A stretch of DNA of 64,000 bases from positions 1 through 64,000 of the forward strand of contig JAHCAM010000011.1 in the NCBI GenBank assembly GCA_019634895.1. Reading direction: 5' to 3'. A program made the translations under genes and the position numbers. The notes below the pieces were generated by a model, which was not told where the DNA came from, ran no database searches, and was given only the letters and a program-made list of their open reading frames with translations. Source of the stretch: Steroidobacteraceae bacterium (GTDB lineage Bacteria; Pseudomonadota; Gammaproteobacteria; Steroidobacterales; Steroidobacteraceae). Shown here one piece after another: positions 4,181 through 49,166 of the stretch (position 1 is its first letter; every line of letters starts with the position of its first letter).

Positions 4181-5043
4181 TGGACCGCCGCTGCATCGCG
4201 CTCTACGACGAGTTCACCCACGGCGTCATGCCGCGGCGCGATTTCCTCGCGCGCCTCGCCCGCATCGCGGGCAGCGCGGCCGCGGCCGCCACGCTGCTGC
4301 CGCTGCTGGAGAACCGCTACGCGGACGCGGCGACGGTGGCGCCGGACGACCCGGCGCTCGCCGCCGGCCGCGAGAGCTTCGAGGGCCCGGCGGGTGCGGT
4401 GTCCTGCTACGTGGCGCGGCAGCGGTCGGCGCCGGAACGCCGGCCCGCGGTCATCGTGATCCACGAGAACCGCGGCCTCAACCCGCACATCGAGGACGTC
4501 GCGCGGCGCGCGGCGCTGGCGGGCTTCCTCGCCGTCGCGCCCGATGCGCTCTCGGGCACGGGAGGCACGCCCGCGGACGAGGACGAGGCGCGCAGGCAGA
4601 TCGGCGCGCTCGATCGCGAGACCGCGCTCGGCATCTATCTCGCGGCAGTCCGCTTCGCCGCGGGGCATGCGCATTCGACCGGCAAGGTCGGCTGCGTCGG
4701 CTTCTGCTGGGGCGGGGGGATGTCGGGCCGGCTCGCGGCGAATTCCCCGGAGCTGAATGCAGCGGTCGTTTACTACGGCAGCCCGCCGTCGGCGGAGGAG
4801 GCGGCGCGTGTCCGCGTCCCCGTCATGATGCACTACGCCGGCCGCGACGAGCGCATCAACAACGCGGTGCCGGCCTTCGACGCAGCTCTGCGCTCGATCG
4901 GCGTGCGCTACGAGATGCACTTCTACGCCGACACCGACCACGCCTTCCACAACGACACCAACGCCGCCCGCTACGACGAGACTGCCGCAAGATTGTCCTG
5001 GCGCCGCACCGTCGAATTCCTCGCGCGCGAACTCGGCGCCTGA
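4177..5043 (+). CDS. Dienelactone hydrolase family protein, Tat-exported
   Basis: An alpha/beta hydrolase of 288 residues. The N-terminus contains a twin-arginine signal (PRRDFL followed by an Ala/Leu helix), so export in folded form is likely. The DLH catalytic triad is visible: nucleophilic Cys in GFCWGG, Asp in GRDERI and His in DHAFHND. The IHENRGLNPHIEDVARR stretch is typical of carboxymethylenebutenolidase-like enzymes that open cyclic esters or lactones. The substrate is not predictable. It starts at an ATGATG overlapping the PspC stop. Confidence 0.9.
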   Translation: MMDRRCIALYDEFTHGVMPRRDFLARLARIAGSAAAAATLLPLLENRYADAATVAPDDPALAAGRESFEGPAGAVSCYVARQRSAPERRPAVIVIHENRGLNPHIEDVARRAALAGFLAVAPDALSGTGGTPADEDEARRQIGALDRETALGIYLAAVRFAAGHAHSTGKVGCVGFCWGGGMSGRLAANSPELNAAVVYYGSPPSAEEAARVRVPVMMHYAGRDERINNAVPAFDAALRSIGVRYEMHFYADTDHAFHNDTNAARYDETAARLSWRRTVEFLARELGA

Positions 5044-5049
5044 TGCATG

Positions 5050-5145
5050 CGCTGCGCGTTGCGGGAGCGCGCGGCGCTCCCTCGTTCGCGCCGCCGGAAC
5101 TTACGCGCTCGCTCGGGTCGCCGCACGCTCCCGCAACGCGCAGCG
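5050..5145. repeat. Stem-loop repeat, family 2 copy A (perfect 20-bp stem, conserved 40-bp core)
   Basis: A perfect 20-bp inverted repeat (5050-5069 and 5126-5145, starting CGCTGCGCGTTGCGGG) encloses a 40-bp core at 5078-5117. The reverse complement of the core matches 5289-5328 with a single mismatch. The stem sequence is unrelated to that of the second copy. It lies in the 319-bp gene-free gap between the hydrolase and pntB, which otherwise shows nothing recognisable. Confidence 0.75.
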
Positions 5146-5274
5146 ATGCGGCCGGCGCCGGGTCACGCGGACGAATGCGCGGAGATGGCTGGAGGCGAGG
5201 GGCAGTCCGTCTGCGGTCCGTGGTTGAGTCGCGCGCAGCGGGTCTTGCGGCATGCCGCGCCGGTACCGCGCGCA

Positions 5275-5343
5275 CTGGCCGGGCGGGGCCCGAGCGAGCG
5301 CGTAAGTTCCGGCGGCGCGAGCGAGGGAACCCCGCCCGGCCAG
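5275..5343. repeat. Stem-loop repeat, family 2 copy B (perfect 14-bp stem, conserved 40-bp core)
   Basis: A perfect 14-bp inverted repeat (CTGGCCGGGCGGGG at 5275-5288 and its complement at 5330-5343) encloses a 40-bp core (5289-5328). The core is the inverse of copy A's core, 39 of 40 identical. It ends about 20 bp from the pntB stop, so it could also influence 3' ends of the pnt transcript. The same core in different stems suggests that the core, not the stem sequence, is conserved. Confidence 0.75.
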
Positions 5344-5362
5344 CAGGCGCGGAACGGATGCG

Positions 5363-6784
5363 CTACCCCGCAGCCTTGACCGCGTGGATCAACTCGGCGG
5401 CGACCTTCTGCGCGTCGCCGTACACCATGCGCGTGTTGTCGAGGTAGAACAGGTGGTTCTCGATGCCCGAGAATCCCGCGCCCTTGCCGCGCTTGATCAC
5501 CAGCACGTTCTTCGCCTTGTCCGCGTTCAGGATCGGCATGCCGTAGATCGGGCTCGACTTGTCGGTGCGCGCGACCGGGTTGACCACGTCGTTGGCGCCG
5601 ATCACCAGCGCCACGTCGGTGGTGTCGAACTCCGCGTTGATCTCGTCGAGGTCGGAGATCAGGTCGTAGGGCACGCCGGCCTCGGCCAGCAGCACGTTCA
5701 TGTGCCCCGGCATGCGGCCCGCGACCGGGTGGATCGCGAAGCGCACCATCACGCCCTTGTCGATCAGCAGCTGGCACAGCTCCCAGACCTTGTGCTGCGC
5801 CTGCGCGACCGCCATGCCGTAGCCCGGGATCACGATCACCCTCTGCGCGAACGCCATCATGATCCCGGCATCCGACGGCTCGATCGGCTTGAGCGAGCCG
5901 GTCACTCCCTCGGCTGCCGCGGCCGGCCCCTCGCCGAAGCCCGAGAACAGCACGTTGCCGAGCGAACGGTTCATCGCCTTCGCCATCAGCTGGGTGAGCA
6001 GCGTGCCCGCCGAGCCCACCACGATGCCGGCGATGATCATCGCCGCGTTCTCGAGCACGAAACCCTCGAAGGCGACCGCGAGGCCGGTCAGCGCGTTGTA
6101 CAGCGAGATCACGACCGGCATGTCGGCGCCGCCGATCGGCAGCGTCATGGTGATGCCGAGCAGCAGCGCCAGCGCGAAGAACGCGATGACCATGCCGAGC
6201 GTCGGATGGCCGGAGATCACGATCCAGGCGCCGATCGCGACCGTGGCCGCCGTGATCACGAGGTTCACGAGCTGCTGGCCCTTGAAGCGGAAGCTGCGCT
6301 TGATCAGGTCCTGCAGCTTGCCGAAGGCGATCAGCGAGCCCGAGAAGCTGACCGAGCCGATGAAGGCGCCGGCCGCCGCCAGCGTGGTGACCACCGGGCC
6401 GTGGTGCGCGTCGCCGGCGGGATCCGTGGTGGTCATGCGCAGCAGCTCGACCGCGGCGATCGCCGCCGCCGCGCCGCCGCCCATGCCGTTGTAGAGCGCG
6501 ATCATCTGCGGCATGTCGGTCATCGCGACGATGCGGCCGGACCACCAGGCGAGCCCGCCGCCGATCGCGATCGCCGCGAGCATCAGCGCGAAGTTGCCCA
6601 TCCCGGGGTAGAGGAAGCTCATCAGCGTGCCGATCAGCATGCCGACGCCGGCGACCACGATGCCGCGGCGCGCCGTGACCGGCGAGCTCATGGCCTTCAG
6701 GCCCATGATGAACAGGAACGCGACCAGCAGGTAGGAGAGGTCGATCGCGAGCATCGCGACGTTCTCCGGCAGGAGTCCGGACAT
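5363..6784 (-). CDS. pntB: NAD(P) transhydrogenase subunit beta
   Basis: The beta subunit of proton-translocating nicotinamide nucleotide transhydrogenase, which uses proton motive force to reduce NADP+ with NADH. It has 473 residues: an N-terminal membrane domain with about eight helices, then the NADP-binding domain III with VIVIPGYGMAVAQAQ, IHPVAGRMPGHMNVLLAEA and GANDVVNPVA motifs. The start ATG overlaps the pntA2 stop (ATGA). Length and motifs are standard; it completes a three-gene operon. Confidence 0.97.
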   Translation of the reverse strand: MSGLLPENVAMLAIDLSYLLVAFLFIMGLKAMSSPVTARRGIVVAGVGMLIGTLMSFLYPGMGNFALMLAAIAIGGGLAWWSGRIVAMTDMPQMIALYNGMGGGAAAAIAAVELLRMTTTDPAGDAHHGPVVTTLAAAGAFIGSVSFSGSLIAFGKLQDLIKRSFRFKGQQLVNLVITAATVAIGAWIVISGHPTLGMVIAFFALALLLGITMTLPIGGADMPVVISLYNALTGLAVAFEGFVLENAAMIIAGIVVGSAGTLLTQLMAKAMNRSLGNVLFSGFGEGPAAAAEGVTGSLKPIEPSDAGIMMAFAQRVIVIPGYGMAVAQAQHKVWELCQLLIDKGVMVRFAIHPVAGRMPGHMNVLLAEAGVPYDLISDLDEINAEFDTTDVALVIGANDVVNPVARTDKSSPIYGMPILNADKAKNVLVIKRGKGAGFSGIENHLFYLDNTRMVYGDAQKVAAELIHAVKAAG

Positions 6785-10681: not shown

Positions 10682-10730
10682 AGGGGACGCGTCCAATTAT
10701 CGCCGGCGATAATTGGACGCGTCCCCTTTA
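10679..10730. repeat. GGGGACGCGTCC palindrome copy 1: perfect 52-bp palindrome
   Basis: The left arm (10679-10704) is TAAAGGGGACGCGTCCAATT followed by ATCGCC. The right arm (10705-10730) is its exact reverse complement, with no loop. It lies between convergent genes, and both stop codons (TAA at 10679-10681 plus; TAA at 10730-10728 minus) are its ends. It could act as a bidirectional terminator. Confidence 0.9.
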
Positions 10731-12640: not shown

Positions 12641-12690
12641 GTTAAAGGGGACGCGTCCCATTACTTGTAATGGGACGCGTCCCCTTTAAC
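12641..12690. repeat. GGGGACGCGTCC palindrome copy 2: 24-bp perfect arms, TT loop
   Basis: Arms 12641-12664 and 12667-12690 are exact reverse complements (GTTAAAGGGGACGCGTCCCA then TTAC). Compared with copy 1, an A becomes C in the first arm and the matching T becomes G in the second, so pairing is preserved. It sits between divergent genes, about 12 bp before the symporter ATG, and so overlaps both leader regions. Confidence 0.9.
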
Positions 12691-14151: not shown

Positions 14152-14695
14152 GCGCGAAGGTGATCGCGACCTCGTCGCCGATCCACTCGGTGGACGCCCA
14201 GTCGCCCTGGCCGACGCCGAACGCAAGGCGCGAGAGCGTGGCGCCGCCTTTCATCGTCAACCGGCCCCTCTCCGGCGCCGCCGTGAAGCGCACGGTGACC
14301 GGCCGCGCCATCCCGCGCAGCGTGAGCTCGCCGCGCGCGCGCCAGCCGTCGCCGTCGCGCTCGAAACCCTCGGCGTGATACACCGCCTGCGGATGCTGCC
14401 CGCTCCAGAAGAAGTCGCGGCTCCTCAGGATGCCGTCGCGGTCGTCGTCCTGGGTGTCCGCGGAAGCGGTCGCGATGGCCACGTGCAGCCGGCCCTGCGC
14501 GGGCGCGGCCGGGTCGAGATCCAGCTCCACCCTGAACTCGGTGAAGCGCCCGGTGAAGCGCGCGCCCGCCTGCACCGCCGTGAACTCGAGCTTGCCGGCG
14601 CGGGCGTCGCCCTGCCAGGCGTCGGCTCCAGCGTCGCCGGCAGCGAGCAGCGCGAGGCCACAGGCCGCGGCCTGCGCGATCAGCGCGCGCGCCAC
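14123..14695 (-). CDS. YceI family periplasmic protein
   Basis: A lipid-binding-like lipocalin-fold YceI protein of about 190 residues. A signal peptide (ALIAQAAACGLALLAAGDAGA) precedes the YceI core with FTGRFTEFRVELDLDPAAP, RDFFWSGQHPQAVYHAE and a final VGQGDWASTEWIGDEVAITF. The GTG start at 14695 overlaps the b561 gene by 16 bp; cytochrome b561 and YceI are also neighbours in E. coli (yceJ-yceI). Such proteins are thought to bind isoprenoid quinones or other polyisoprenoids in the periplasm. The partner cytochrome may exchange electrons with the bound ligand. Confidence 0.88.
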   Translation of the reverse strand: MARALIAQAAACGLALLAAGDAGADAWQGDARAGKLEFTAVQAGARFTGRFTEFRVELDLDPAAPAQGRLHVAIATASADTQDDDRDGILRSRDFFWSGQHPQAVYHAEGFERDGDGWRARGELTLRGMARPVTVRFTAAPERGRLTMKGGATLSRLAFGVGQGDWASTEWIGDEVAITFALSLARAQAP

Positions 14696-41348: not shown

Positions 41349-41427
41349 TAAAGGGGACGCGTCCAATTAAATCCAGCGGCCGCCGGCGGATCCGGATGGC
41401 CGGATCTAATTGGACGCGTCCCCTTTA
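41349..41427. repeat. GGGGACGCGTCC palindrome copy 3: 21-bp perfect arms, 37-base loop
   Basis: Arms 41349-41369 and 41407-41427 are exact complements (TAAAGGGGACGCGTCCAATT then A). The loop 41370-41406 is itself structured and GC-rich, with GGCCGCCGGCGG and CCGGAT/ATGGCCGG pairings. It lies between convergent chrA and CBS genes; the CBS stop is 3 bases outside the arm. Confidence 0.9.
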
Positions 41428-41914: not shown

Positions 41915-41962
41915 AAGGGGACGCGTCCAATTACCAGCACGGGTAATTGGACGCGTCCCCTT
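41915..41962. repeat. GGGGACGCGTCC palindrome copy 4: 21-bp arms, 6-base loop
   Basis: Arms 41915-41935 and 41942-41962 (AAGGGGACGCGTCCAATTAC then C) pair perfectly around AGCACG. It sits between two minus-strand genes, in the CBS promoter region and just after the epimerase stop, which is 19 bases away. Confidence 0.9.
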
Positions 41963-49095: not shown

Positions 49096-49166
49096 TAAAG
49101 GGGACGCGTCCAATTATCGCTGGGCCGATAATTGGACGCGTCCCCTTTATCTCGTCCCCTTTATCT
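49096..49166. repeat. GGGGACGCGTCC palindrome copy 5 with 14-bp tandem duplication of its end
   Basis: Arms 49096-49119 and 49126-49149 pair perfectly over 24 bp around CTGGGC. The end of the right arm, CGTCCCCTTTATCT (49139-49152), is repeated exactly at 49153-49166. It lies between convergent genes. The duplicated 14-mer encodes the last residues of the minus-strand MFS protein, whose TAA stop lies inside the palindrome. Confidence 0.9.

Follow-up and report, generated by a model that had tools for sequence, protein, structure and literature searches.

A probably mobile family of palindromic hairpins with a constant loop and copy-specific stems in a genus of Steroidobacteraceae

How can two neighboring hairpins share a nearly identical core and yet stand on stems of unrelated sequence? 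The question is raised by an intergenic gap in the window, by which we mean the whole stretch of 64,000 nucleotides analyzed here (Steroidobacteraceae bacterium, assembly GCA_019634895.1, contig JAHCAM010000011.1, positions 1 to 64,000). The gap of 319 bp lies between a dienelactone hydrolase gene (plus strand, ending at 5043) and pntB, the gene of the transhydrogenase subunit PntB (minus strand, ending at 5363). Its features are as follows.

5044..5362, no strand: convergent intergenic gap with a divergent doublet (A minus, B plus)
5047..5053, plus strand: ATGCGCT, left copy of a 7-bp direct repeat around the doublet
5050..5145, minus strand: hairpin A, 27-nt arms around the conserved core, beta-like subfamily (covariance model E=6e-10)
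5078..5117, minus strand: conserved core A, 13-nt loop on an upper stem that has two tandem G.A/A.G motifs
5092..5104, minus strand: 13-nt apical loop GTAAGTTCCGGCG of hairpin A
5275..5343, plus strand: hairpin B, 14-bp perfect outer stem around the conserved core (covariance model E=2e-10)
5289..5328, plus strand: conserved core B
5302..5314, plus strand: 13-nt apical loop GTAAGTTCCGGCG of hairpin B
5358..5364, plus strand: ATGCGCT, right copy of the 7-bp direct repeat, overlapping the pntB stop codon

An earlier note on this DNA had described cores that are alike at 39 of 40 positions on opposite strands, perfect outer stems of 20 bp (A, 5050-5069/5126-5145) and 14 bp (B, 5275-5288/5330-5343) that are unrelated in sequence, and a gene-free setting for both, and our recomputation gave the same picture. 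The 20 perfect pairs of A proved to be the outer part of a full stem of 27 nt with one mismatch (26 of 27 positions complementary). Nor is the 40-bp core the open loop that had been supposed: only the central 13 nt are unpaired, and the remainder forms an upper stem with tandem G.A pairs. The folding energies of the two hairpins lie 3.8 to 8.5 standard deviations below those of dinucleotide shuffles. Paired with their own partners, the outer arms form duplexes of -41.4 (A) and -36.4 (B) kcal/mol, whereas arms swapped between A and B reach only -15.9 and -17.1. The ATGCGCT pair may or may not mark a target duplication. A third window match of the covariance model (14552-14611) was weak and did not fold into the element.

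The match between A and B is not due to chance. A core-derived 20-mer searched with at most 2 mismatches gave 17 genome matches (0 for a reversed-pattern control), and a 15-mer with at most 1 mismatch gave 41 (1 for the control); the genome of the window thus holds about 41 copies. As the earlier note had proposed might be found, the other copies of the core each have their own flanking inverted repeats. The single hairpin measures about 70-100 nt. Its 13-nt loop, GTNAGTTCNGNCG, sits atop a 12-pair upper stem that retains tandem G.A/A.G mismatches, and below this stands a copy-specific, self-complementary outer stem of 14 to about 40 bp. Across 70 copies, loop positions 1, 5-8, and 10 do not vary, upper-stem pairs 1-4 and 8 are always paired, and pair 7 is paired in 69; pairs 5-6 and 9-10 are nearly always either tandem G.A/A.G (5'-CGAG in both arms) or Watson-Crick, other states being rare. 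Of the two strands, the one that carries the GTAAGTTC loop is more likely to fold, because its complement would have T.C mismatches. A covariation test found double-sided changes in 12 of 14 pairs, with 116 such cells compared to 36 in shuffles, and the signal vanished when the partner was offset by one to three columns. In 72 copies, the mean duplex energy of the outer 20-nt arms is -34.4 kcal/mol with their own partners, compared to -19.4 for the arms of dissimilar copies or shuffles. The conserved loop and varying stem that were noted for A and B are therefore real, except that the constant part includes a paired upper stem.

The copies fall into subfamilies that are told apart by their outer stems. 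In the gamma type, for example, the inner part reads AAACTC/GAGTTT and is followed further out by an internal loop, GGATCC/ACCT; the delta type is marked by GGGATCCTGCGAG. Alignment revealed element-specific sequence common to copies well outside the core, and thus whole hairpins, not cores alone, have spread. Genome G004 has its own gamma variant (loci L291, L292, and L293) with the loop TNNAGTTCCGGCA, the inner stem CGAACCC/GGGTTCG, and the same outer GGATCC/ACCT internal loop; since the latter is kept, loop and inner stem changed together in G004. A compact doublet that is unique among the copies, with a nested pair of cores 31 bp apart and the common arm sequence GGGCCCGCAAGCGGGC, was seen at L042:1452-1543.

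Nearly all copies are confined to one genus, whose other species have up to about 24 each. With a covariance model made from 66 copies, and with up to 27 candidates scored in each genome, 7 of 200 family genomes were matched, namely six of the seven of the genus and G029. The sister records with the hairpin are labeled as Gammaproteobacteria or Steroidobacteraceae MAGs, and one more true hairpin was found in a record labeled Betaproteobacteria (L167). Other matches from the out-of-lineage scan (a Klebsiella-labeled MAG, Thermoguttaceae, Aureimonas, Verrucomicrobia, and Caballeronia) did not fold into the hairpin and were taken as chance. The hairpin was not found in plasmid sequences, and a phage origin was rejected, as four IMG/VR matches lacked the hairpin and all lay in one unrelated sequence context. 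Rfam 15 gave no match at the gathering threshold; its subthreshold miRNA-like matches are generic hairpins.

The usual layout is that of the window, a divergent doublet of about 215-290 bp with the left core on the minus strand and the right core on the plus strand; the sole exception has a flipped loop. Doublets follow immediately after stop codons; with genes called by a simple codon model, convergent gaps have 9 of them, tandem gaps 15, and divergent gaps none. Kissing between the two loops of a doublet, which the complementarity of inverted loops would permit, was rejected, as doublet partners in G002 bear different loop variants. Behind pntB in related genomes, G004 has one decayed hairpin that matches hairpin B, G005 has two, whose loops read AATAAAGATCGG and AATAAGTTCGG, and G006, G001, and G002 have other neighbors or no hairpin. 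No further true copies of its decayed variant were found in G005. These decayed hairpins suggest that cores decay where the family is inactive.

Empty sites show where the element inserts. In G003, a 132-bp stretch with one hairpin is absent from the matching place in G006. The composite at L008 lies exactly where two genes overlap by TTGA or GTGA in G006 and G002, and seven further junctions are filled in G000, the species of the window: rsmH/ftsL, murD/ftsW, murG/murC, pepP/ubiH, L016, L025, and L045, those at murG/murC and L045 by single hairpins (gene names here were read from translated ends and not from a database scan). In all, eight operon junctions thus have a doublet or single hairpin exactly in a stop/start (RTGA) overlap, and these are empty in nearly all sister species. 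For the seven junctions and L007, 31 of 37 sister-species junctions are empty RTGA/TTGA overlaps; among the other six, three at L007 consist of a stop codon and a short gap, two at pepP/ubiH have no overlap, and one is independently filled. At the empty junctions examined, no prior palindrome was seen. The same ATGA junction as that of L016 holds a hairpin of a different subfamily in G004, with the 9-bp GCCGCATGA on both sides, and this site was therefore hit twice. Three of the insertions in G000 fall within one 10-kb cell-division cluster (contig C90, 2054-12133; murG/murC, murD/ftsW, and rsmH/ftsL), where sister species have overlapping genes at the same junctions.

Both reading frames remain intact at the filled junctions of G000, gene 1 ending in RTGA and gene 2 starting with RTGA or TTGA, and GGAG or GAGG precedes the start by about 7-8 nt in 9 of the 10 right-hand ends. 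Ten tandem copies have RTGA(GC) at both ends. Permutation tests found no duplication longer than this; a long target-site duplication including the Shine-Dalgarno sequence, plausible by eye, was not supported by them, and convergent sites had no consistent target-site duplication. It is conceivable, if somewhat doubtful, that insertion is directed to the RTGA overlap, with the loop and the tandem G.A upper stem as the recognition signal. The element would then duplicate the overlap, leave both proteins intact, bring a Shine-Dalgarno-like GGAG/GAGG for the downstream gene, and unhook translational coupling in core operons such as the cell-division cluster.

In-frame insertion into a coding sequence was found for one gene only, polA, which has one hairpin in G000, G001, G004, and G006, in the linker that joins the 5'-nuclease domain of DNA polymerase I to its 3'-5' exonuclease domain. 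This hairpin is absent from G002, whose linker lacks hairpin sequence, and from the remaining family genomes in the alignment. In G000, a central segment of the palindrome of about 50 bp has the opposite orientation to that in G001, G004, and G006. When this segment is flipped back, its loop and upper stem agree with those of G006 base for base and with those of G001 almost so. In the encoded peptide, ASERVSSGGASEP becomes GSLAPPELTRSLAG, and the reading frame is preserved.

The loop of L009 is likewise flipped relative to other gamma copies. In addition, perfect pairing has taken the place of the tandem G.A motif, in one direction (GCTCGC/GCGAGC) in L009, L017, and L069 and in the other (GCGAGC/GCTCGC) in L039, and outer arms change together. 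In published work, a polymerase that switches template between inverted repeats leaves homogenized arms and inverted spacers behind (PMC8604942, PMC8794818). Therefore, the loop flips, the two-way G.A replacement, and the joint arm change indicate template switching between the arms; the footprints are observed here, and the mechanism is drawn from the published work. Selection for the folded strand may add to this. That most copies still have G.A is in keeping with such selection but also with simple descent. The suggestion that arms are template dependent is consistent with these footprints, but the further idea that the core alone is copied into different hairpins disagrees with the outer-stem subfamilies, the sequence shared beyond the core, and the palindrome-free empty sites.

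We therefore regard it as likely that these hairpins form a REP/RPE-like family of mobile palindromes, genus specific and noncoding, whose members spread as whole hairpins and whose arms stay matched through template switching, perhaps aided by selection. The mobile unit would be the whole hairpin, mostly two in divergent orientation. It would probably move as folded single-stranded DNA by means of an enzyme that recognizes the loop and the G.A upper stem. Insertions survive where genes are unharmed, as the empty sites show: behind stop codons, exactly in stop/start overlaps, or in a flexible protein linker. After insertion, the outer arms would drift, and template switching during replication would then copy arm onto arm and sometimes flip the loop, giving a well-matched private stem. 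The loop and upper stem would stay constant because they are needed for mobilization or by a bound partner. Two results count against this reading: no mobilizing enzyme could be tied to the family among the Y1/RAYT genes of the genus, and convergent sites gave no consistent target-site duplication. In addition, part of the covariation could reflect selection on RNA structure and not a mutational mechanism.

A rival explanation holds that the hairpins are functional structures at RNA 3' ends (terminators, mRNA 3' stabilizers, or processing sites) kept by selection for RNA folding, with a loop that binds a protein or RNA. A placement some 40-60 nt past stop codons, in gaps that are convergent or tandem and almost never divergent, would fit, as would the strong covariation and the invariant loop positions in 70 copies. 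However, the window copies have no T-run and no intrinsic-terminator match, and in most cases the RNA made from the adjacent gene contains the complementary strand of the core, which would have U.C in place of G.A mismatches. In addition, one copy lies within polA, and the cores in G005 decay while the genes remain. We consider this explanation unlikely. A near-identical core beneath which the arms of A, L011, L024, and others appear unrelated might also suggest that the core alone moves, homing into preexisting palindromes such as terminator hairpins, with each copy retaining the stem of its host. This is highly improbable, given that outer arms, internal loops, and spacer are shared within subfamilies, that the empty junctions have no palindrome, and that the polA linker of G002 has no hairpin sequence.

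The fixed layout of the composite, the presence or absence of copies between genomes, the RTGA(GC) ends of tandem copies, and the 9-bp repeat around the G004 copy would be expected if the family were a MITE of a classical transposon and the draft genomes happened to lack the autonomous copy. We nevertheless give this little credence, as the elements have no common terminal inverted repeat outside the hairpins, permutation finds no target duplication past RTGA, and lone single hairpins also occur.

No mobilizing enzyme could be linked to the family among the Y1/RAYT genes of the genus examined in draft genomes. A RAYT/Y1 transposase was rejected as the cognate enzyme: none of the six genes of the genus, two of them in the genome of the window, is flanked by the hairpin repeat, the best covariance-model match at the six loci had E=0.18, and the loci examined bear other repeats. 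G001 and G006, both incomplete genomes, have hairpins, and no Y1 gene was found in them. One of these other repeats, the GGGGACGCGTCC family, forms inverted pairs in the window (10683-10726, 12647-12684, 41353-41423, 41917-41960, and 49100-49145), with 14 window sites at up to 1 mismatch compared to 1.8 expected. In L127, copies of it bracket the gene of the Y1/RAYT-type transposase, and it is thus probably the cognate repeat of that transposase. The second Y1 gene of the same genome (L128) lies between two copies of another repeat, whose translation reads NLRIYDPAP. Inverted repeats also flank the Y1 genes of G003 (GGGGACGCTACCC) and G004 (GCACTTATCGCACTTATT); they differ between the two genomes and are located as follows.

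L306:1160-1195 and 1979-2045: inverted repeats at a sister Y1 gene
L308:950-980 and 1985-2015: inverted repeats at a sister Y1 gene

What share of the "compensatory evolution" of hairpins is due to selection and what share to template switching is a live question. With its copies, empty sites, loop flips, and corrected arms, the genus offers a natural series in which the two can be weighed. In addition, the eight tolerated insertions at overlapping stop/start codons of essential operons in one species make the survival of operons without translational coupling testable.

Among known systems, REP, BIME, and REPIN elements with a GTAG tag are short intergenic palindromes, often in inverted pairs and restricted to a genus, and in Escherichia coli the conserved irregular stem of REP is required for recognition by TnpA-REP (PMC3116915, PMC3733652, PMC8266576). 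The family described here is like REP in its dispersed intergenic copies, mostly in tandem or convergent gaps, its inverted pairs, and its genus restriction. It is built inversely to known REPs, with the tip constant and the stem changing: REP stems measure 5-13 bp in units of 20-40 bp, whereas the stems here run from 14 to about 40 bp and differ from copy to copy beneath a constant loop. The terminal GTAG is absent, the bases of the hairpins share no sequence, conservation is seen instead in the apical loop and upper stem, and a RAYT gene flanked by the hairpin repeat was not found at the six Y1 loci of the draft genomes. CGTC-tagged repeats and Rickettsia palindromic elements (RPE) have no known dedicated transposase and insert in frame into genes (PMC3733652, PMC10969869), and DNA polymerase I genes with REP-type insertions have been described (PMC3733652). 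The in-frame insertion in polA and the lack of a known dedicated transposase are shared with these elements; unlike them, the present family lacks the CGTC terminus, conserves the apical loop and upper stem, and shows a loop flip inside polA between species. Arm homogenization and inversion of the spacer or loop (L009, L039, and polA) are as in inverted repeats maintained by template switching (PMC8604942, PMC8794818), but those are single loci, and here a dispersed repeat family has a conserved 13-nt loop. Like intrinsic transcription terminators, the hairpins are GC rich and lie right behind stop codons; unlike terminators, they have a 13-nt loop, a very long stem, and, in the window copies, no T-run. 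Taken together, these sequence features suggest that the family resembles REP, RPE, and other small palindromic mobile repeats and stands outside the GTAG and CGTC classes, because terminal tag and stem length differ from both and the RAYT association differs from that of the GTAG class.
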